A DNA stretch of 64,000 bases from Porticoccaceae bacterium (GTDB lineage: Bacteria > Pseudomonadota > Gammaproteobacteria > Pseudomonadales > Porticoccaceae). The stretch spans positions 1-64,000 of the forward strand of contig JAJFKC010000006.1 in the NCBI GenBank assembly GCA_021773435.1. The letters are read 5' to 3'. Below, piece after piece: positions 187 to 11,036 of this stretch. Every line of letters starts with the position of its first letter. Within the stretch, counting starts at the first letter, position 1. The notes beneath the pieces were generated by a model that saw nothing but the letters and a program-made list of their open reading frames with translations, was not told the DNA's origin and searched no databases. Made by a program: the position numbers and the translations under genes.

Positions 187-1497
187 AATGAGTTTGCCAA
201 GGGCGTGGGGAACACTCCATTACCTATTCAATAGCCGCTAATTTGGTCGGTTCATCCCCACGGGTGTGGGGAACACATATTTACCCTGATTATATTCGCT
301 CAAATCACCGGTTCATCCCCACGGGTGTGGGGAACACGGTTGTCTGCTGGCGACGGTATTGCCCCCGATCGGTTCATCCCCACGGGTGTGGGGAACACTT
401 TGAGCGCGGCCAAAAATAGCCCGGCACCGACGGTTCATCCCCACGGGTGTGGGGAACACGGTGTGATCGTTACAGATAAAATAGCGTGGTGCGGTTCATC
501 CCCACGGGTGTGGGGAACACAGCACCATTACAGTAGTGTTGTTGCGATAAATCGGTTCATCCCCACGGGTGTGGGGAACACCCCTCTTTGCAGCGCGTCG
601 ATAACCTCATCGACGGTTCATCCCCACGGGTGTGGGGAACACGGGCGTGACTAAATTAAGGATTGAGGAGAAAACGGTTCATCCCCACGGGTGTGGGGAA
701 CACACGATATGCCAGGGCCTGCACCACCAAATACGCGGTTCATCCCCACGGGTGTGGGGAACACACTCGCCGCTGATCTCCGAAAGTTCAGCCAGGCGGT
801 TCATCCCCACGGGTGTGGGGAACACTATTCAATTGAAGACGAAGGGGACGACCAGGACGGTTCATCCCCACGGGTGTGGGGAACACAACATCGACGGCGC
901 AATACAGAGTCAGAGCGGCGGTTCATCCCCACGGGTGTGGGGAACACTTTTGCGGCGCCTTTTGCCGCTGCAAAATGCCCGGTTCATCCCCACGGGTGTG
1001 GGGAACACCTGACTGTCACCAAAGGTTTTGATATTAAAAACGGTTCATCCCCACGGGTGTGGGGAACACTCACAAACAAAGCCGTGTGGCACAACGAATA
1101 CCGGTTCATCCCCACGGGTGTGGGGAACACTGTATATCGAGTTTGATAACTCCCTGGCGTCGCGGTTCATCCCCACGGGTGTGGGGAACACTAATATTCC
1201 AAATCGTCCACCAGAGCACGAATCGGTTCATCCCCACGGGTGTGGGGAACACGCCGACCCCGTGACCACCATTACCGTGGGCACCGGTTCATCCCCACGG
1301 GTGTGGGGAACACGTTCAAAAATGGGCGGGCAGAAAGCGCCCGCCCGGTTCATCCCCACGGGTGTGGGGAACACGAAGGTGACATCGATGGCGGGGTCGA
1401 GTTTGTCGGTTCATCCCCACGGGTGTGGGGAACACGCATTTAACATTAAACCCAGCAAGCAGTGGAGCCGGTTCATCCCCACGGGTGTGGGGAACAC
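187..1497 (-). CRISPR. Type I-E CRISPR array, 22 repeats and 21 spacers
   Basis: The 29-base repeat reads, on the plus strand, CGGTTCATCCCC, ACGGGT, GTGGGGAACAC. Intact copies start at 248 and every 61 bases to 1407, with a last one at 1469: 21 in all. A decayed copy at 187-215 keeps only its right half. Spacers are 32 bases except the leader-proximal one (1436-1468), which is 33. The guide-RNA orientation is the minus strand: repeat 5' GTGTTCCCC, an inner stem CCCCAC/GTGGGG, and the 8-base handle ATGAACCG next to each spacer, as in the E. coli I-E repeat. Decay at the left end marks the old, trailer end; new spacers enter at the right, next to cas2. The near-perfect repeats suggest an active or recently active array. 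Confidence 0.98.
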
Positions 1498-2839: not shown

Positions 2840-3268
2840 TTAATCCTTCAGCAGTAGATTCTCAAATGGATGATGATTTTTCCAACGGTAGGTTTTAAAA
2901 TCTCGCCGATCAGTCGACAGAATGCGGCCATGGCCCAGCGCTTCGGCAAGAATCACCAGAGAACCGTCGGCCAGGTCCATAGGTAAATCAGCGTATTTGT
3001 CCATCAATTGATGTAAGCGGATCAAGTCGGTCGACTGCAAGGGAAAGACTTCAATGCCAGCATTGCGCAAGGAGTCGACAAATTTCAGCTGTGTTGCGGT
3101 GCCCATTTTTTTAAGTAACAGGTGGCAAGTTTCTGTCACCACCGGCCAGGTGGTAATCAATGGTGAGGTGCAATCGGATAGGAACTCTACTGCTCGGTAG
3201 TGATGACGATCATTCCGATTAATTAAAGCAAACCAATAGCCTGTATCAACCAGGAGGGTGTTTTTCAT
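2840..3268 (-). CDS. PIN-domain toxin (VapC-like) inside the cas operon
   Basis: 142 residues with the four acidic positions of a PIN ribonuclease: the aspartate in LLVDTGYWFAL near the N-terminus, a glutamate in VVTETCHLL, an aspartate in DLADGSLVILAE and the aspartates in STDRRDF. PIN toxins cut RNA, usually tRNA or rRNA. The start overlaps the end of the upstream antitoxin gene by 23 bases, the classic toxin-antitoxin arrangement. It sits between cas6e and cas1. All catalytic acids look intact, so the toxin is probably functional; its RNA target cannot be predicted. Confidence 0.88.
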   Translation of the reverse strand: MKNTLLVDTGYWFALINRNDRHHYRAVEFLSDCTSPLITTWPVVTETCHLLLKKMGTATQLKFVDSLRNAGIEVFPLQSTDLIRLHQLMDKYADLPMDLADGSLVILAEALGHGRILSTDRRDFKTYRWKNHHPFENLLLKD

Positions 3269-3503
3269 TTAAACTACCCGTTAAATATTCCTTGTAATTC
3301 TCAGACAGATCTTCAGGACCACTGCCAATACCCGCCAGATCCTTAAGCAAGCGCTGGCTTGCCTGGCAAGCCTCATCCTCGAGTTCTTTCACATAGAGCT
3401 CTAAAGAGTGCTTAATAATTTCCGTACTCGTTTGCCCCGTATTCTGTTTCAAATACTCAAAAGCTTTCTCGCTCGAATCATCTAGCCGTGCATTGATACG
3501 CAT
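3246..3503 (-). CDS. Ribbon-helix-helix antitoxin of the PIN pair
   Basis: 85 residues starting MRINARLDDSSEKAFEYL, a typical CopG/RHH DNA-binding N-terminus, followed by a charged tail that would wrap the toxin. I chose ATG at 3503 because AGAGG lies 5 bases upstream; an in-frame GTG at 3509 lies inside that ribosome site. RHH antitoxins bind operator palindromes in their own promoter, and a perfect one is present at 3541-3569. Translation is coupled to the toxin by the 23-base overlap. Confidence 0.85.
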   Translation of the reverse strand: MRINARLDDSSEKAFEYLKQNTGQTSTEIIKHSLELYVKELEDEACQASQRLLKDLAGIGSGPEDLSENYKEYLTGSLNEKHPPG

Positions 3504-3540
3504 ACTCACCTCTGCTCATTCATGATAGATGCCATAGCTT

Positions 3541-3594: not shown

Positions 3595-4209
3595 TCAGCC
3601 CGCAGCCAAAGACAAAAGACCGCATCCAAACGCTTTTGCAGGACCAATTCCACGCTCTAAAATAGTACCCAATGCCTTGGTATCAGCCACCACCAATACA
3701 CCATCAAACAGTACTGGCTGAATTTTCCCACTTCGTTTTTCTTTGGTTTTACGAAAATACAGTGGGCGCTCTTGCTGCACGACTAAACTTTCCATCAACG
3801 CGATACCTTCAAATTTTCGAGCTAGCCACATCCGCTGTTCGTCTTCTTTAATCAGCGGCACCCGGACTGTTCTAGAAAATGTTCTACCGTTTTTCTCTAC
3901 CTTTCCTCTGGCGGGGTCTTTAATCGTTTTAATGAGGTTCGCACGAAGTCGAAAGCGCAACCGTTGCCCAACATGAAACGCAGGCTCAAAGGTTTTTTGT
4001 CCAAGAACTCGAATTGCCGAGGTCATCTGCGGAATTTGGGCGGATTGCATCAAAAGTTCACAACCCACACCCTGTTGTTGCCCCTCAACTCTGAACAAAA
4101 AATCACGACTAGCTTCCGCCTGCCCAGGGAAAAGTTCCCACAGCCGCTGATGGATTTGATAAGCATTTTTAGCTTGGTTGCCTTCTATTAACACTTTACT
4201 GAGATACAT
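3595..4209 (-). CDS. cas6e: Cas6e (CasE), crRNA-processing endoribonuclease
   Basis: The reading frame is open further upstream, but the family start MYLSKVLIEG falls at 4209 behind GGAGGTGAGC, giving 204 residues. Cas6e cuts the repeat 3' of its hairpin and stays on the guide as the head of Cascade. Tyr17 and His20 in AYQIHQRLW match the catalytic Tyr23/His26 of E. coli. The KSGKIQ-like and IGPAKAFGCGLLSLA motifs near the C-terminus form the glycine-rich RNA-binding loop. The start overlaps the end of cas5e by 14 bases, indicating translational coupling. Confidence 0.97.
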   Translation of the reverse strand: MYLSKVLIEGNQAKNAYQIHQRLWELFPGQAEASRDFLFRVEGQQQGVGCELLMQSAQIPQMTSAIRVLGQKTFEPAFHVGQRLRFRLRANLIKTIKDPARGKVEKNGRTFSRTVRVPLIKEDEQRMWLARKFEGIALMESLVVQQERPLYFRKTKEKRSGKIQPVLFDGVLVVADTKALGTILERGIGPAKAFGCGLLSLAAG

Positions 4210-4861
4210 GCTCACCTCCGGCGTGAATATACACCGTTCGGGTGCCAAACTGCCGTTTTCGACCGAGCAACACATCCCTTAATTGAAGCTGCCCATCTGC
4301 TCCTTCATCCACGTCACTGTAGTAAACTCCTTCATACGGCTGAACTTTGGCGAAAGCATCTCCAAAGCTGTCGGCATGTAACCGGGTTTCAAATAAAGGC
4401 CGTGTTATCGGGCAAGAGCGCCTGCCAAGAAAGGGGGTGTATGCGGGGCTTTTTAGTTTTTTTTCTATCTGATCATGTGAGTAGCCAGCACTATCAGTCG
4501 TCGTTATTCCTACAGTAAAGCTCGCATCGCAGAGGTATTCTCGACGCGAGACCACCGGGTTTTTATTTTCTTTGCCATCCACTTTGCGCGCTTTTTCAAC
4601 CGTGTGGAAATCCGTTAAGCGAACAACCGGCAGTGTCTGATTCTCTCCTTTCCCGTCGTCCTGCCTAACGGCAACAACCAAACTATTGGATAAGGCCATT
4701 TGGCCCTTCTGGTCTGCCCGGTCGATGCCCATGCAGGCCGCCAACATACCCAGAACCGCACTGCGGGTAGGAAAGCCATTGCTGGGCCGGTAATCTTCGT
4801 AAGTGTGCGACCCCCAGGATTGCAGTGGCCCCTGCAATTTTAATATCAGGTACTCGGTCAT
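4196..4861 (-). CDS. cas5e: Cas5e (CasD), Cascade subunit
   Basis: 221 residues from ATG at 4861 (MTEYLILKLQGPLQSWGSHT), preceded by AGGAG; the longer frame reading back to 4933 overlaps cas7e and is not the family start. Cas5e grips the 5' handle of the crRNA and contacts Cas8e at the tail of Cascade. LQGPLQSWG and the phrase PSNGFPTRSAVLGMLAACMGI are hallmark Cas5e text. It lies 4 bases after the cas7e stop. Confidence 0.97.
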   Translation of the reverse strand: MTEYLILKLQGPLQSWGSHTYEDYRPSNGFPTRSAVLGMLAACMGIDRADQKGQMALSNSLVVAVRQDDGKGENQTLPVVRLTDFHTVEKARKVDGKENKNPVVSRREYLCDASFTVGITTTDSAGYSHDQIEKKLKSPAYTPFLGRRSCPITRPLFETRLHADSFGDAFAKVQPYEGVYYSDVDEGADGQLQLRDVLLGRKRQFGTRTVYIHAGGEHVSQ

Positions 4862-4865
4862 CGGT

Positions 4866-6119
4866 CTACTCCTGTGCCAACACCCACTCACCAAGCTCAA
4901 CCATGCCAGCAACCGTTTCGACTTCTGAATCAAGGTTTAACAGGGTGAAGAGACGACCTTCCTCTTCCAGGCCATAGGCCTGCACAAGTTGCTTATGATG
5001 ATTGAGCAGGGCTTCACTAGACGGCTGTCGAAAGCCCCCGCTGGGGTCAGCTTTGATGGGTGTTTCAAAGGCATTGGCTAGCGAAAGCGGTTGATCTGCA
5101 AAGGAGAGCAGTACCGTGTCCGCCAAATTATGTGCAGCAAAGGTTTGCTGCTTGGCTGAGGGCACAACCGTCGCGAACAGGTGAATAAAATGCCGCGCAA
5201 CCTCTAGCGCTTTTTGTCGTGAACAATCGCCAAGATTTTTCTGCAACTGGCCAATGTTCAGACTGGCGTATCGATAAAACACACCGCTGGAAAACTCCTG
5301 GGTATTCAGGTGACCTGCACCCACTTCACCTTCATCAACGATCAGATCATCGACGGCAGTGAACCAGTCAATATCAGCATCCACACTGTGGGTGGTAATG
5401 GCATGGGCTACCGCGAGCGCACCATCCACATTGGTCATTAGCCCGGAGGTGGCCATGCGGCCTGAAAGGGCAATATCAACTGCACCACCACATGCAGCTC
5501 GCAAATTAGATGCCCGCGCTTCAAGTTGTTTTTTAACCTTTTTAGTTAAAAAGCCTTCCCTTACTTGATCGCCGGTGAGTTTTGGTTTTTTCTTTGTTGG
5601 TTTTCTACTACGTTCTTTATCAATAGCTTTTTTGAGCGATTCATTTTCCTTTTCAGACAACGGACTTTCGAAAACTTCTTGTGCGGTCTCACAGATCAAC
5701 TTGAACTCTGGAATGGACCAAGGGGCAACAGCGATTTTTTTATTGGAATCATCTGTGCTTACCTCTTCGCCCTCATCTGAATCATCTTCTTCTCCATCAT
5801 CACCTATTTTATTCTTGGCGAAAATCTGAACCCCAAGTTCAATCCATTTCCTATCCAAATCAAACAACGGATCTTTGGTCAATTCTTGGTGCATTTTTTC
5901 AGCAAGCAACGTCAATTCCCGGGTTCGAATCGAACTTTTACCAAGATTCTCACAATAGTAATCACTGGTACGAATTGCCCTTTTTAAGCTCTGGCTGGAT
6001 ACTCGCACCCGCCGTTTACCGCCGAATATGGCCGACTTTTGCATATTCATATCATCGCGATTCAGACAGGATGGGCTATGTGATATCAGCACGTGCATGT
6101 TCAAAAAATTCTTACTCAT
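4866..6119 (-). CDS. cas7e: Cas7e (CasC), Cascade backbone subunit
   Basis: 417 residues. Six copies of Cas7 coat the crRNA spacer to form the Cascade backbone. The N-terminus (FLNMHVLISHSPSCLNRDD, then KRRVRVSSQSLKRAIR) and SGRMATSGLMTNVDGALAVAHA are family landmarks. It is longer than the roughly 360-residue E. coli protein because of inserted charged segments: an acidic stretch (GDDGEEDDSDEGEEV) and a lysine-rich stretch (RSRKPTKKKPKLTGDQ) before the conserved domain resumes. The start overlaps cse2 by 4 bases. Confidence 0.97.
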   Translation of the reverse strand: MSKNFLNMHVLISHSPSCLNRDDMNMQKSAIFGGKRRVRVSSQSLKRAIRTSDYYCENLGKSSIRTRELTLLAEKMHQELTKDPLFDLDRKWIELGVQIFAKNKIGDDGEEDDSDEGEEVSTDDSNKKIAVAPWSIPEFKLICETAQEVFESPLSEKENESLKKAIDKERSRKPTKKKPKLTGDQVREGFLTKKVKKQLEARASNLRAACGGAVDIALSGRMATSGLMTNVDGALAVAHAITTHSVDADIDWFTAVDDLIVDEGEVGAGHLNTQEFSSGVFYRYASLNIGQLQKNLGDCSRQKALEVARHFIHLFATVVPSAKQQTFAAHNLADTVLLSFADQPLSLANAFETPIKADPSGGFRQPSSEALLNHHKQLVQAYGLEEEGRLFTLLNLDSEVETVAGMVELGEWVLAQE

Positions 6120-6595
6120 GGGGTCGCTTCCTCTGCTTCTGACTTGGTTGATTCACTTAAAAAGTACTGCTCGACGATCTGGCGTTTGCTACGTTTCCCC
6201 CAGTAATAAATAAGGGGGCCGAATTTCGTCCAATCCACACCAGGCTCTGCCTGCTGGATTAAACGACGCAAGAGCTCGATATCTTTTGGGGATTCGGAGC
6301 GCATCATCTGAAACAGTCGCATTTCACTAATGCGTGCATTTTTAAAAGCCTCACCGATGGGCCTGGCGCCAGAGTGGTGCGGCAACCAGGGCAAAAGAAA
6401 TGCGCTCCGTTCGGCCACACGGCCCGCCGGAATTTGGCCCTGAATTAGCCGGTAATAGGCCGGGTAATCGGCAATGTCATCCAGGCTCCGGCAACGTTTA
6501 AGCTCGGCAAGCCAGCCACGATGATGTTGCTGCCACTCCTTCATCCGGCCACTGAGCGCCAGCCAATCAATGGTTTTTTGTACAGTCTGTTCCAT
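6116..6595 (-). CDS. cse2: Cse2 (Cas11e, CasB), small Cascade subunit
   Basis: 159 residues, the usual size. Two Cse2 subunits line the inner belly of type I-E Cascade and stabilise the displaced DNA strand. The WLAELKRCRSLDD and PAYYRLIQG segments and the downstream LPWLPHHSGARPIGEAF-like text (conserved in E. coli as the region around the RALRR core) fit the family, though its sequence is variable. Placement between cas8e (9-base gap) and cas7e (4-base overlap) settles the identity. Confidence 0.95.
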   Translation of the reverse strand: MEQTVQKTIDWLALSGRMKEWQQHHRGWLAELKRCRSLDDIADYPAYYRLIQGQIPAGRVAERSAFLLPWLPHHSGARPIGEAFKNARISEMRLFQMMRSESPKDIELLRRLIQQAEPGVDWTKFGPLIYYWGKRSKRQIVEQYFLSESTKSEAEEATP

Positions 6596-6604
6596 AGCAA
6601 CTCC

Positions 6605-8086
6605 TCAGATTTCTATTTTTTTTAACCCGATGTTTAGGCTGTGCCGGTCTTTTGCGTACTGAGCTAAACCACCTGGCGAATGCTGGTAGGGTTTGCTCAA
6701 GTCATCAAAAATAGTTCTCGCCAATTTTTTACAGTAGGCAATAAAATCAGTAACGGCTTGCTTGCCTTCCTTTCGGTGAGAAAAGGTCCTTAATAGTTCG
6801 TGTACTTTGTGCTCGGTTTGCTGATAAAAAATACGTTCTGCCTGATCCTGGATTTTTGCTCCGGTTTCTTTGCCAAAATAATAGGCACGCCCCCTGAGAA
6901 CAGTTTTTATTGCCAGTGCAGCATCGATGGCCGTCACCAACCAGCGTTGGTTAACGGCCCAGTTGCTTGGCATGGAAAAAACCTCATGACGACGCTCTAG
7001 AATAGCCGCCTGTTTGTTGGCATAACCGCCGATCAAAACCACCATCTTGTCGTGGGTCTGCTCAAGAAATACCTGCTCAAAATGATCAACTACCGGCGCT
7101 CTTGCATTGCCCGCTCGGGGTTTGTCGGTACTTAAAACAAATTGATTAAGCTGCGTCCATCCCGGCACGAGCTGGTTGAAGGACATATAGCGCTCTTTCT
7201 CCCGTTGCTCATTTTTGATATTCCACACCCGGGGCGAGTGAGGGTGTGGCCACTGGCCATTGACCTCGAATTTAAAGTCCGCCTCACATCGAAACCCGGT
7301 ATAAGCTATGTCAGAACTATAACCACAATGATCACAGGTCATTAATCGCGGACTTGATTCGAGTTTGAGTCGCAATGGCTGCCAAAATAAGCCCCGCGCC
7401 AACCCGATAGTTTGTGCGGCAATTATTTCGCCGGACTTAATCGGGTCTATCCAGCACAGCTCATTCCGTTTTGCGTCAGGTAAAAGCTTCTCTATCGCGG
7501 CTCGGTTCAATACATTGAGCCAAAGCGTTTCCCGTAAATGCTCACCAGCGAGAAAGGTGTTGATCTTCCCACCCCCCCTTAAACCGGCTTTATGTTTTCC
7601 CGAAAAACCCGGTGCGTTACTGGCCTGATTAAATAAAGCAATCGCTGCGCAACCGCCACAAATAGCTTCAATTTCACCAGACTCATTGAAAAAGGCGTGG
7701 TTGTTGCCAGCGGGCAGGCCAGTGAACAGTTTTTGAATCGGGGTGATGTCCGCTGTGTTGGGGTTGGCTACCTGCATAAAGGGTGTTTCGGCGTGCTGCA
7801 AATCGAAACTATCCGCGAAGTTATCCGACCACTGCTGGTATTCATCTCCAGCAAGAGGGGTTTTCACTCGCTGGCGCAAGTCTCGCGCATCTATCGCTGG
7901 CGCAATTACCTGCACCAGGCTAATCAGCAACTGTAGGGCTGCTAATTCCATATCATCCCGTGGTAAGGCTAAATGAAACTGCTGCTCCGATGTAAGAAGG
8001 GTTTGCAGGCTAATTTGCTGCAGGCCACCGGGTGAGCGTACGGGTATCCAGTTCAAAACTAAAAGATTTGTCATTACATCAGCCAT
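6605..8086 (-). CDS. cas8e: Cas8e (Cse1, CasA), PAM-recognition subunit of Cascade
   Basis: 493 residues. Cas8e reads the PAM and recruits Cas3. Visible landmarks are LVLNWIPVR at the start, LALPRDDMELAALQLL, CGGCAAIALFNQ, GLFWQPLRL, a CDHCGYSS zinc-type motif and WPHPHSPR. I kept ATG at 8086 (TGGAAATGG upstream); ATG at 8074 (MTNLLVLNW) matches the E. coli start more closely and is possible. The gene follows a 38-codon membrane ORF by 12 bases and probably shares its promoter at 8245-8273, separate from cas3. Confidence 0.97.
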   Translation of the reverse strand: MADVMTNLLVLNWIPVRSPGGLQQISLQTLLTSEQQFHLALPRDDMELAALQLLISLVQVIAPAIDARDLRQRVKTPLAGDEYQQWSDNFADSFDLQHAETPFMQVANPNTADITPIQKLFTGLPAGNNHAFFNESGEIEAICGGCAAIALFNQASNAPGFSGKHKAGLRGGGKINTFLAGEHLRETLWLNVLNRAAIEKLLPDAKRNELCWIDPIKSGEIIAAQTIGLARGLFWQPLRLKLESSPRLMTCDHCGYSSDIAYTGFRCEADFKFEVNGQWPHPHSPRVWNIKNEQREKERYMSFNQLVPGWTQLNQFVLSTDKPRAGNARAPVVDHFEQVFLEQTHDKMVVLIGGYANKQAAILERRHEVFSMPSNWAVNQRWLVTAIDAALAIKTVLRGRAYYFGKETGAKIQDQAERIFYQQTEHKVHELLRTFSHRKEGKQAVTDFIAYCKKLARTIFDDLSKPYQHSPGGLAQYAKDRHSLNIGLKKIEI

Positions 8087-8098
8087 CCATTTCCAAAA

Positions 8099-8215
8099 TT
8101 AGCCCATTACTGAAATCACCAACACCACCAGTAAAACGAGAACCAAGATGCCCCGATCATCAATCTGATTACAAACGCCGAGAAATTTCGTTAATGCCTC
8201 AATCAGTTCCTTCAC
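8099..8215 (-). CDS. 38-residue single-pass membrane peptide between the promoter and cas8e
   Basis: Starts with GTG at 8215 behind a strong GGAGG placed 6 bases upstream and ends TAA at 8099-8101, 12 bases before cas8e. The predicted peptide begins VKELIEALTKFLGV, continues NQIDDRG, then has an uninterrupted hydrophobic run (ILVLVLLVVLVISVMG) long enough to cross a membrane. It is the first gene downstream of the predicted cas8e promoter, about 22 bases after the likely transcription start. Small size, one hydrophobic helix and the neighbouring crRNA-like gene recall membrane-acting toxins of CreTA-type modules, but I recognise no family. The ribosome site and operon position argue for a real gene; function is inference. 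Confidence 0.6.
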   Translation of the reverse strand: MKELIEALTKFLGVCNQIDDRGILVLVLLVVLVISVMG

Positions 8216-8244: not shown

Positions 8245-8273
8245 ATCTTATGCTCATAATTTTTATTATTCAA
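8245..8273 (-). promoter_or_regulatory. Promoter of the small membrane ORF and cas8e operon
   Basis: On the minus strand TTGAAT (8268-8273) and TAAGAT (8245-8250) are separated by exactly 17 bases. The predicted start of transcription is near 8238. The -35 box overlaps the AAG motif that flanks the match to the crRNA-like gene at 8328-8402, so Cascade bound there would cover this promoter. Confidence 0.7.
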
Positions 8274-8306
8274 GTATGTATTGGTTAGCATAAAACTCTC
8301 CGCTAC
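8272..8306 (+). promoter_or_regulatory. Predicted Cascade operator: PAM plus seed match to the crRNA-like gene
   Basis: AAG at 8272-8274 is a standard type I-E PAM. It is followed at 8275-8285 by TATGTATTGGT, identical to the first 11 bases of the spacer at 8342-8373. Base 12 differs, which falls on a position that is flipped out in I-E Cascade, base 13 matches, and similarity then fails. Such seed-only pairing should allow binding without cleavage by Cas3. The 32-base footprint runs from the cas8e -35 box into the -10 box of the crRNA-like gene's own promoter. Confidence 0.75.
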
Positions 8307-8309
8307 AAT
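8281..8309 (+). promoter_or_regulatory. Promoter of the crRNA-like gene
   Basis: TTGGTT (8281-8286) and TACAAT (8304-8309) are 17 bases apart on the plus strand. The likely start near 8316 is 18 bases before the intact repeat handle. The promoter lies inside the predicted Cascade operator, so the RNA may repress itself. Confidence 0.65.
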
Positions 8310-8327
8310 ACACCTTCCTCAAATATC

Positions 8328-8402
8328 TTGGGGATGAACCGTATGTATTGGTAAATACGGTAATTAGCATCAATCGTTCCCCACGTCCGTGGGGATGAAA
8401 AG
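8328..8402 (+). ncRNA. Solitary crRNA-like gene (CreR/CreA-type), repeat-spacer-repeat
   Basis: A 3' part-repeat at 8329-8341 (TGGGGATGAACCG) keeps the complete 8-base crRNA handle ATGAACCG. It is followed by a spacer of exactly 32 bases (8342-8373) and a second 29-base repeat (8374-8402) that differs from the array repeat at six positions but retains the CCCCAC/GTGGGG processing hairpin. The orientation is opposite to the main array. Degenerate flanking repeats, a lone spacer, a location beside cas8e and seed-only identity with the adjacent promoter are the known features of Cas-regulating RNAs. The RNA is predicted to be matured by Cas6e and to steer Cascade to 8272-8306. Confidence 0.8.
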
Positions 8403-8425
8403 GCCAGGGATATCCTTGGCCTTTT
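8398..8425. terminator. Bidirectional intrinsic terminator between the crRNA-like gene and cas3
   Basis: A 12-base-pair stem (AAAAGGCCAGGG against CCTTGGCCTTTT, one G-T pair) with an ATAT loop. Read rightward it ends the crRNA-like transcript with a T tract at 8422-8425; read leftward it follows the cas3 stop codon, whose last bases lie in the stem, and would separate cas3 from the cas8e operon. Confidence 0.85.
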
Positions 8426-11036
8426 ACTCATGTTTTTCCATTGAAAGCCCTATTAACTCGTTGTAGTTCAGGTAATTCTTGTTCCCGCGCCAACTCCACT
8501 CATTTGCTACCTCTGTCATCTCTATCCTTACAACACCATCAATATCGGGGTCTGGAAGCCATTTCCTCCAACTTGCTGGTGCACCCACAGTACTTAATAA
8601 CATGGCTTCTTTCTGATCCCATTCATCCAAGTCTTTCAGCGCCGTGCCCGTCAAGGTCGTCAGGCCTTTGGTGCTCTCTTGCAACAGAAGTACGCTTAGA
8701 TTCATATCACCGTCTCGCGTCATGCAGGCGACATTTTCATCGGTGTCAGCGGCGGGGGAATATTCCGTATTGGCGAGTTGACGGGCGCAGTAATAGGTGG
8801 CCTGAGATTTGGTTTCGTAGTCTTCGTGGGATTTTTGAATTGCTTCCGGCTCATCTTGCCAAGACTCATCGTCGTAGACTTTCTCAATCCACTCACGATA
8901 GGCGGCAGGGAACTGAATGGTAGGAGTTTCTTGAAGTAGTTCTTTTGTTCGCCATAAAAACCGACCCGATGCGTAAACCAACTGATGCAGGCCAAAGTCA
9001 TCCTCCTCGACAGGGACTAATACAACAGCACGGGGTACACCGGCAAAATTGGCAGGTCGATTGTTTCGCTCATGCCGATGCAAGCGACCCAAACGCTGAA
9101 ACAGCAAATCAACTGGACATATCTGGCTGACCAACCAGTCAAAATCGAGATCGAGGGATTGCTCGATAACCTGGGTCGCCACCAATATCCGACCCCTGGC
9201 TCTCTTATCACCTTTACCGTAGAAATCGAGTACTTGCTGCTCATGCTGTTGGCGGTGGGCAAAGCAGTAACGGGCATGAAAAAGATCCACTGGTATATCA
9301 AGATTCGACTGACCGCAAAGCTCTACCAGCCTTTGGTAGAGCTGCTGTGCGTCAGCCACCAAGTTGCAAACGATACCCACTAGCGCGCCTTGTTCTGCGG
9401 CCTCTAACAGACGCAGCATCAAATCTTCATCCGGCAAACAATCTTCTGTGGCTACTAACTCCACCTGAACTTCGCGTGGCTCGGGCAGCTGGTCTTTATC
9501 TTCGATTTGAATCCTGCCCACCTGGTTTTGATAAACCTGGGTGACCAAAGGATAGGGCTGAAGTCCGTTACTATTTGTATTAGCCGATGCATCATCTGGG
9601 CGCGCTCCCCACGCGTCAAGCAGCTTGTTTTTATGCTCTGCGGGCAAGGTGGCGGACAACAGAATTGCTGAGCCACCCGCCTGCTGCTGAGCACTTAACA
9701 CGCACGTTAACAGACCATACATGTAGGCATCATAAGCGTGGACTTCATCAACAATAAGCACACTTTTCTGTAAGCCAAAACTACGAACAAAATTGTGGCG
9801 CACTGGCAGCACTGAAATAAGCACCTGGTCTATCGTACAAACGCCAATCTGGCCCAGGAACACTCGCTTTCGGCTCTCACCCAGCCATTGGGCGCACTGC
9901 ACTTGTGCCGCTTCAACTCCCTGAGCATTTGGCATCTCTGCAGCGGATTTAATTCGTTGAAAATCCTGACTAAACCTTGCTCGCCCGTGGGCTAGAACAA
10001 TATTTGTGTTTCCTTCATATAGCTTTCCTGCGACGACTTCGAGGCGCTCCAGCATTGCATTCGCAGTGGCCTGGGTGGGTAGCGCGAAGATAATACTGTC
10101 TGCCCTATTAGTTGCTAACAACTGACTTGCAAGTGCTAGCGCCGTTTCTGTTTTTCCAGAGCCGGTAGGAGCTTCAATCAGAGTGAGTCCGCTTTCGAGA
10201 TTGAATTGACTCAGAGTTGCTTGGAATTGCCTCGGCTCTAAGTCAGGAAAAAGTTCGCTCATTCCGGCAACACCTGAAAGTTCTTTATGCAGCCCCATTT
10301 CCTGCACAAGGGGTGCCGCTACTTTCAATGCAGACTTCCAGTAATCCCCCATCCCTAAAGAATCATCAGAACAGTATTTGAAAAACTCGGGATTTGAACC
10401 TACCCAATCGCATACAGAGCAAAATCCAGCCAATAAGGGTGAGCAGTTCGGTAGAGGTTGTTGCCAGTCGATTCCCACAGGCTTGAGGTATAAATCGATG
10501 AGGGCGTCAACCCATTCTGCCCGCGCCTTCTCGTCCCGTGCGATAACCCAATCCTCAGCATCGGGGGCTTGCCAGCTGCCTGACATTTGCAAAACCCCGT
10601 GGTGACCACATACCGCCGCTAACCAACTCTGCCAACTATCAAAATCAACGCCGATTTTTTTTGATATCTGCCGACGAAAGGCGAGAAAGCCCTGCGGCCC
10701 GTGGTAATACTTACGCTCGCCGGCTGCATCATCGGGAGAGATGTCCGGCCGCAAACCTTGAAGAGACGCAGGGGACTTTAATTGGAAACGGATATCGATC
10801 TTGCCCAAGTCGTGCAATGCAACAAAAAACAGTACCCACGCTTTAGCCTGCTTTTCAGATATTCCAATATTCGAGACGAATGCTCTCCGAATCGCCGCAG
10901 ATTGATCCCACCATTGTGAAGCCACCGCCGCCACATCCAGGCTATGATAGGGCAACAGATGATATCGGACATCTTGATCATCCGTGGCGGGTTTGGCTTT
11001 GCCCCAATACCCAAAATATGATTTGTATGAACCCAT
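8424..11036 (-). CDS. cas3: Cas3, HD nuclease-helicase of type I-E
   Basis: 870 residues. Cas3 is recruited to Cascade R-loops and unwinds and degrades target DNA. The HD domain (residues about 20-230) shows HLLPYHSLD and LHDLGK with the HD pair at 75-76, and CGHHG. The helicase follows: Walker A APTGSGKT near 287-296, a DEVH box (VDEVHAYD), SATLP, and motif VI QRLGRLHRH. All key residues are intact, so interference should be possible. It has its own candidate promoter and is divided from cas8e by a terminator, like the split cas3 of E. coli. Confidence 0.98.
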   Translation of the reverse strand: MGSYKSYFGYWGKAKPATDDQDVRYHLLPYHSLDVAAVASQWWDQSAAIRRAFVSNIGISEKQAKAWVLFFVALHDLGKIDIRFQLKSPASLQGLRPDISPDDAAGERKYYHGPQGFLAFRRQISKKIGVDFDSWQSWLAAVCGHHGVLQMSGSWQAPDAEDWVIARDEKARAEWVDALIDLYLKPVGIDWQQPLPNCSPLLAGFCSVCDWVGSNPEFFKYCSDDSLGMGDYWKSALKVAAPLVQEMGLHKELSGVAGMSELFPDLEPRQFQATLSQFNLESGLTLIEAPTGSGKTETALALASQLLATNRADSIIFALPTQATANAMLERLEVVAGKLYEGNTNIVLAHGRARFSQDFQRIKSAAEMPNAQGVEAAQVQCAQWLGESRKRVFLGQIGVCTIDQVLISVLPVRHNFVRSFGLQKSVLIVDEVHAYDAYMYGLLTCVLSAQQQAGGSAILLSATLPAEHKNKLLDAWGARPDDASANTNSNGLQPYPLVTQVYQNQVGRIQIEDKDQLPEPREVQVELVATEDCLPDEDLMLRLLEAAEQGALVGIVCNLVADAQQLYQRLVELCGQSNLDIPVDLFHARYCFAHRQQHEQQVLDFYGKGDKRARGRILVATQVIEQSLDLDFDWLVSQICPVDLLFQRLGRLHRHERNNRPANFAGVPRAVVLVPVEEDDFGLHQLVYASGRFLWRTKELLQETPTIQFPAAYREWIEKVYDDESWQDEPEAIQKSHEDYETKSQATYYCARQLANTEYSPAADTDENVACMTRDGDMNLSVLLLQESTKGLTTLTGTALKDLDEWDQKEAMLLSTVGAPASWRKWLPDPDIDGVVRIEMTEVANEWSWRGNKNYLNYNELIGLSMEKHE

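Follow-up and report, generated by a model that had tools for sequence, protein, structure and literature searches.

A Cas-regulating RNA (CreR) is stated to occur in CRISPR-Cas (clustered regularly interspaced short palindromic repeats and associated genes) systems of types I-B, I-E and V-A (PMC13131331). Reviews present it as a CRISPR RNA (crRNA)-like RNA that comes from a mini-CRISPR and, through partial complementarity to the cas promoter, brings about autorepression (PMC13131331, PMC12948488, PMC12737573). For CreTA, published descriptions give degenerate repeat pairs (psi-R1 and psi-R2) as the rule (PMC8501985, PMC9458426), and positions 1-5 and 7-11 as the seed of the haloarchaeal I-B CreA (PMC8501985). 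The I-F CreTA of Acinetobacter is described from the cas3-csy1 gap, with creA divergent and, downstream of the target, a mini open reading frame (ORF) led by a Shine-Dalgarno (SD) sequence; its peptide is reported to be dispensable and its CreA not to obey the seed rule (PMC10097628). In CrePA, the gene that the guide RNA represses via the Cas effector codes for a protein toxin, CreP, described as typically a KilA-N protein (PMC12737573). Here we describe a one-spacer, CRISPR-like guide gene in a Porticoccaceae bacterium (contig JAJFKC010000006.1, assembly GCA_021773435.1). It lies on the plus strand of the 337-nucleotide (nt) gap between cas3 and cas8e of a type I-E locus, within the first 64,000 nt of the contig, hereafter the window. 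On the strength of its sequence and of comparison with other loci, we consider it highly probable that the element at 8313-8425 is a crRNA-like guide of the CreR/CreA type, which would steer Cascade to repress both the cas operon and the guide itself.

The locus resembles each of these systems in part. It shares with CreR a mini-CRISPR guide, partial complementarity to the cas promoter and the logic of autorepression, the repression being a prediction here. In contrast to CreR as known from the reviews, the promoter at the target first reads a conserved membrane ORF of 38 amino acids (aa), and the site also holds the predicted promoter of the guide. Judged by these likenesses, the element works like, and probably is, a CreR. 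Regulation of this type has already been described for type I-E (PMC13131331); the preliminary description of this DNA included neither that fact nor the small membrane ORF as the first gene of the target promoter. The psi-R1/pseudo-spacer (psi-S)/psi-R2 structure is that of CreTA, with the haloarchaeal seed (1-5 and 7-11) and the gap layout of I-F, whereas the ORF is longer than that of I-F CreTA and conserved as a protein, and the guide follows the seed rule. The placing of a guide RNA over a protein-coding gene, acting via the Cas effector, recalls CrePA; unlike CreP as the review describes it, the product here is a 38-aa one-helix peptide that is not recognizable as a KilA-N protein, matching nothing in Pfam or NCBIfam up to E = 1. 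A canonical I-E mini-array would have the same repeat length (29 nt), spacer length (32 nt) and handle (ATGAACCG), but the element has degenerate repeats, a predicted promoter and terminator of its own, and a target in the host's own promoter region.

The guide gene and its target

The gene extends from psi-R1 through psi-R2 (8313-8402), or to 8425 with its terminator-like hairpin. The two repeats diverge from the array repeat and from one another, so that the near-identical repeats of a canonical array are lacking. Their sequence nevertheless appears able to yield a crRNA: the handle agrees at all eight positions, the spacer has 32 nt and both hairpins are present. The predicted transcript (8316-8430) folds below shuffled sequences (z = -5.3).

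Immediately after the protospacer-adjacent motif (PAM) AAG at 8272-8274, the target reads TATGTATTGGT (8275-8285), identical to guide bases 1-11. Base 12 is mismatched, base 13 matches, and the remainder shows scattered matches. PAM-flanked partial complementarity to the predicted cas promoter is thus found, comprising AAG with bases 1-11 and 13 and overlapping the predicted -35 element of the cas8e operon. The 3.4-Mb assembly, 98.7% complete, has a single copy of the string AAGTATGTNTTGGT (AAG plus the seed, with base 6 left free) and none of the reversed control. When the 337-nt gap was resampled 20,000 times with a Markov model, AAG followed by the 11-mer was never obtained, nor was AAG followed by the 10 paired seed positions. 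Within the gap, no spacer of the 21 in the array reaches 9/10 next to an AAG; across the 64-kb window two of them do, and none reaches 10/10. The preliminary description had stated that AAG and 11 bases repeat the 5' end of the spacer, that the similarity ends after base 13, and that such a match is improbable by chance. The coordinates and base comparison bear out the first two statements, and the resampling and the uniqueness of the site in the assembly bear out the third.

Recurrence at other cas8e loci

Loci with cas8e were gathered from samples of relatives, class, phylum and order, giving 96 with upstream DNA. In 35 of these (gap loci), the distance from the preceding large ORF to cas8e was at least 100 nt; three of them (L081, L091 and L105) had no large upstream ORF within the DNA examined. 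G353 (where the contig ends), G362, G694, G653, G872 and the second places in G833 and G1137 are not among the 96, and the loci of Escherichia coli and Salmonella were counted separately. A locus was scored as positive if it had a handle-like octamer (at least 6/8) and, within 200 nt, a target preceded by AAG with at least nine matches at positions 1-5 and 7-11. Promoter and hairpin statistics are based on 19 positives, G556 being excluded.

By this rule, 20 of the 35 gap loci, all from the window's own class, bear an apparent site of RNA-guided self-repression, and 15 of the 20 match at 10/10. The other 63 PAM triplets together gave 19 locus-counts at 9/10, one each, and 11 at 10/10. Shifting the guide frame by 1 to 5 or -1 to -3 (eight offsets) gave 0-1 loci, and Markov-resampled gaps gave 0-2 per 35 in 20 rounds. 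Where the gap was smaller (61 loci), a single match appeared in the last 500 nt, in G1089, which is the chance level. Positions 1-5 and 7-11 match nearly always in the 20 positives, having been selected for by the scan. Position 6 matches in 5, 12 in 4, 13 in 19 and 14 in 17; farther out, 15 and 16 match in 13 each, 17 in 8, and 18, 19 and 20 in 5, 5 and 3. The scan applied no selection from position 12 on, so the fall in matching at 12 and its return at 13 are a fingerprint of pairing by a type I Cascade, whose crRNAs leave positions 6 and 12 unpaired. A mutated CreA of Haloarcula hubeiense provides a parallel. Positions 6 and 12 are described as free there also (PMC8501985), so that comparison alone finds in nature what mutational tests found.

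In the loci nearest to the window, the seeds differ and each is mirrored in its own target: TATGTATTGGT in the window, TAGGT(R)TTGAG in G002, which is of the same genus and has a 66% identical Cas8e, and TAGGTATTGGA in G991. Of 19 loci, 15 (1.3 expected) have a psi-R1 stem of at least 5 bp beside the handle, and 18 of the 20 positives share one layout, with the guide divergent from cas8e and the target on the guide strand. A search of genome contigs with the window's Cas8e found no relative; the G991 Cas8e, searched against 61 genomes of its family, found itself and one weak match. Two further gaps, L060 (G218) and L072 (G334), hold repeat-like elements whose seed matches fail the AAG rule; these are possibly guides with other PAMs or decaying guides.

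Predicted promoters under the target

The best -35-like box in the cas8e direction begins at the TT of CTT, the PAM complement, in 12 of 17 loci of the same layout. In these 17 loci both strands were scored against CTT-matched resamples, and the mean promoter-like scores at the target were 8.5 versus 7.4 and 9.4 versus 7.8, neither reached in 5000 resamples. The guide gene's -35 corresponds to target positions 7-12 both in the window and in G002, and the cas8e-direction promoter of G002 is TTGAAT-17-TAGAAT. In the window, the guide gene's predicted -35 lies wholly under the 32-nt footprint, its -10 by half.

The preliminary description had placed both the -35 and the -10 of the guide gene under the footprint, and this holds for the former alone. 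Its proposal that the site spans two divergent promoters agrees with the raised signals on both strands, and its double negative feedback is favoured, as a design, by the position of the guide's -35 and by the raised guide-direction scores. Its central claim was a Cascade-guided repression that relies on a seed-only match, is licensed by the PAM and acts over two divergent promoters. The comparison argues for this claim, because the predicted conservation of PAM and seed, the free positions 6 and 12, and promoter-like signals in both directions were all found, and because seed and target differ together in the three nearest loci.

A small ORF between target and cas8e

In the window, G002 and G991, homologous ORFs of equal length lie at the same place; those of G002 and G991 are 45 and 58% identical to that of the window, which is the first gene of its operon and lies 12-24 nt before cas8e. 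In all three pairs of this set, the proportion of nonsynonymous change (pN, 0.24-0.33) is below that of synonymous change (pS, 0.76-1.01), the latter near saturation, and the residues K, N, DRG and VLVLL are kept. These values indicate that the ORF is under purifying selection at the protein level. It lies beyond the target, as the CreTA ORF does, and the pN and pS values point to the peptide. AlphaFold, run from three sequences, predicts helices at 2-17 and 21-37 (mean predicted local distance difference test score, pLDDT, 77).

A second set of ORFs occupies the same place in G063 and G075 (56% identical), with that of G547 alike by eye; the ORF of G1001 has a similar shape and place, and the sequence model gives no link for it. 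Shape, with about 20% identity, suggests an unproven kinship between the two sets. In all, 7 of the 20 guide loci have, between target and cas8e, an ORF with one hydrophobic helix and a length of 36-41 aa; five of these seven ORFs follow an SD-like motif. The other 13 loci showed none, 12 of them on ORF scan and model and G556 on the model alone. The guide pattern is missing from 15 gap loci, and one of these (G486; L132/L159) has the ORF, kept beside cas8e in a cas3-cas8e gap of about 1 kb together with a decayed repeat remnant; no target was found there.

The sequence relatives found for the small ORF all adjoin such guides or, in G486, the decayed one. A search of 194 genomes of the order gave E < 0.01 at the ORF's own locus alone (next, 0.015), and no match was found in viral contigs (window set) or plasmids (one peptide). 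Patterns of the second set found 128 stretches in genome contigs of 84,980 species, among which the CRISPR loci of G063 and G075 alone were confirmed. Neither Pfam nor NCBIfam (four peptides, up to E = 1) nor PADLOC (two peptides) gave a match, and a known small-toxin family was accordingly rejected. A rare-codon RNA toxin was likewise rejected, as the window ORF contains no AGA or AUA codon. We found no report of a membrane peptide of this kind in the literature searched, and such a conserved peptide under guide control would be an addition to the systems described.

Predicted mechanism and alternatives

From transcription to repression without cleavage, the predicted course of events is as follows. 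The guide transcript would be cut by Cas6e at both degenerate repeats and loaded into Cascade; the expected processed RNA, of about 61 nt, would read 5' AUGAACCG and then UAUGUAUUGGU. Cascade would find the AAG, pair guide positions 1-5 and 7-11, plus 13, at 8275-8287, and, the match being too short to recruit Cas3, remain in place as a roadblock. That the target would not be cleaved is suggested by the short match and by the published behaviour of CreA (PMC8501985). Cascade would thereby cover the -35 region of the minus-strand promoter that drives the 38-aa ORF and then cas8e-cse2-cas7e-cas5e-cas6e, as well as the -35 of the guide gene. With both -35 regions covered, it would repress its own operon and the guide. 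Displacement of the guide by competing array crRNAs would relieve the repression, as would a block or loss of Cascade.

Several observations weigh against this reading. A stricter consensus scan found no promoter in the window gap, where 1.4 were expected in shuffles, so both window promoters are plausible yet weak. The psi-R1 stem has 4 bp in G002, G547 and G1014, and none by the rule used in G400. Two positives differ in layout, with the target on the opposite strand in G400 (L066) and the guide on the cas8e strand in G1137 (L147). Some of the 20 are closely related (two come from G459, and G287 and G151 are of one genus), which leaves about 18 independent cases. The pattern as scored is missing from 15 of 35 gap loci and the gap is shorter than 100 nt in 61 of 96 loci, so the element is optional; in L013-L015, fairly close Cas8e relatives, cas3 and cas8e overlap. 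The match could also be a chance repeat in intergenic DNA, the target region being AT-rich, yet the absence of any equal in 20,000 resamples and the recurrence in 20 of 35 loci make this vanishingly improbable, and it was rejected. It is very unlikely, too, that the element is a functionless, decaying mini-array whose spacer came from the host's own promoter and is drifting. Degenerate repeats, a match confined to the seed and the decay seen in G486 are what such a history would leave; but a drifting spacer would not retain positions 1-5, 7-11 and 13 and release 6 and 12, nor would hairpins persist in altered sequence, and this explanation was rejected on those grounds.

Two further proposals concern what the repression is for, the conserved membrane ORF being taken as a toxin or as a cas accessory. 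We hold it to be an even matter whether the cas operon carries the ORF as a harmless leader or as an accessory membrane peptide, the guide then being a pure CreR autorepressor. The ORF is the first gene of the operon and close to cas8e, most guide loci have no small ORF, and CreR is published for I-E (PMC13131331); yet conservation at the protein level, at 45-58% identity, argues that the peptide itself acts. Possible, though we hold it tentatively, is a CRISPR-guarding addiction module, in which the small membrane ORF is a toxin, a protein counterpart of CreT/CreP, held off by Cascade and the guide and released when Cascade is lost or inhibited. The guide would act as in the main reading; what sets this proposal apart is the purpose of the repression. 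Its presence in seven guide loci, mostly behind an SD-like motif, the low pN in all three pairs, and the occurrence of all relatives found beside such guides, or the decayed one of G486, suit a toxin, as does the layout of I-F CreTA, described with creA divergent from an SD-led mini-ORF and the target between them (PMC10097628). Against it, in the 13 loci with no ORF detected the guide must have other work; the toxin would share the Cascade transcript, so that crRNA-driven induction would induce it also; no toxin family matches; the G486 ORF persists despite a decayed guide and target; and characterized CreT toxins act as RNAs, whereas the window ORF has no AGA or AUA codons. That the peptide is a toxin is rather doubtful, and slightly more tentative than the module itself is a protein-toxin guard inside Cascade's own operon, with guide RNA and Cascade holding the promoter of the membrane peptide and then of Cascade. 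If this were true, disabling Cascade would release a membrane-acting peptide and fresh Cascade together, and the system would represent a new class of CRISPR-controlled toxin (a membrane peptide), a hybrid of CreR and CreTA/CrePA.

The element in E. coli and Salmonella

The 414-nt cas3-casA gap of E. coli K-12 MG1655 (NC_000913.3), scanned as a control, contains the same element, at about 2884356-2884600 (L007:4357-4600). A CCCTAC-TTAA-GTAGGG stem precedes its handle, ATAAACCG, which agrees at 8/8. The guide occupies 2884510-2884541; there is a psi-R2-like hairpin, which extends into the 3' end of cas3, and then another hairpin. The processed guide RNA would begin AUAAACCG. The target is AAG plus 2884356-2884387, where 14 of the first 16 bases match, with mismatches at 6 and 9; 14/16 was reached in none of 20,000 resamples. 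The mapped seed of the E. coli type I-E system is positions 1-5, 7 and 8. In five further E. coli variants, the first 17 positions change at guide base 12 and target base 17 alone, in all five. Of 5426 E. coli genomes, 1106 contain at least 80% of the K-12 gap.

The silence of the E. coli I-E cas genes is ascribed to H-NS (PMC8616872). The K-12 guide gene may supply a product for a divergent promoter there, and the element allows direct tests in the best-studied I-E system. Full-text literature searches found no paper on the E. coli element; the primary CreR paper was outside their reach, and hence no priority is claimed. In Salmonella Senftenberg (NZ_LN868944; L168:2063-2500), a guide that follows ATAAACCG matches an AAG-flanked site of the divergent cas3/casA gap over 15 contiguous bases. 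In E. coli 1506 (L167), the place of casA and the gap, between casB and cas3, is taken by an IS1 transposase gene.

Features of the window locus

The type I-E locus opens the window on the minus strand, in the order array, cas2, cas1, a PIN/VapC-like pair, cas6e, cas5e, cas7e, cse2, cas8e and cas3. Coordinates are collected in the table. No Rfam family was found in the window at the gathering threshold.

Table. Positions of the guide element, its target and neighbouring genes in the window
Feature	Position	Strand	Remarks
PAM AAG	8272..8274	+	complement CTT gives TT of minus-strand -35
Protospacer-like target	8275..8306	+	same as guide at 1-11 and 13; unique in genome
Predicted promoter of small ORF-cas8e operon: TTGAAT (8273-8268), 17 nt, TAAGAT (8250-8245)	8245..8273	-	promoter scoring
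Predicted guide-gene promoter: TTGGTT (8281-8286), 17 nt, TACAAT (8304-8309)	8281..8309	+	-35 inside seed target
Degenerate first repeat, psi-R1	8313..8341	+	6-bp hairpin retained in altered sequence, then 5' handle
5' handle ATGAACCG	8334-8341	+	8/8 match
Guide (pseudo-spacer), exactly 32 nt	8342..8373	+	
Degenerate second repeat, psi-R2	8374..8402	+	stem intact, handle decayed
Intrinsic terminator-like hairpin of guide gene	8398..8425	+	12 pairs; 0.3 expected in shuffles
Small ORF, 38 aa, GTG start, SD GGAGGT at 8226-8221	8099..8215	-	amphipathic helix and one hydrophobic (predicted transmembrane) helix
cas8e (cse1/casA), first large gene of Cascade operon	6605..8086	-	TIGR02547, E 2.5e-76
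cas3	8424..11036	-	NF007248, 1041.8 bits
cse2, cas7e, cas5e, cas6e	3595..6595	-	
CRISPR array with 21 perfect repeats of 29 nt; would supply the competing crRNAs	248..1497	-	

The last repeat of the array (187-215) is half degenerate, reading GTGTTCCCCACGCCCTTGGCAAACTCATT. Between cas6e and cas1, on the minus strand at 2840-3509, lie a PIN-domain (VapC-like) gene and a weakly ribbon-helix-helix-like partner, a second toxin-antitoxin-like pair within the cas operon.
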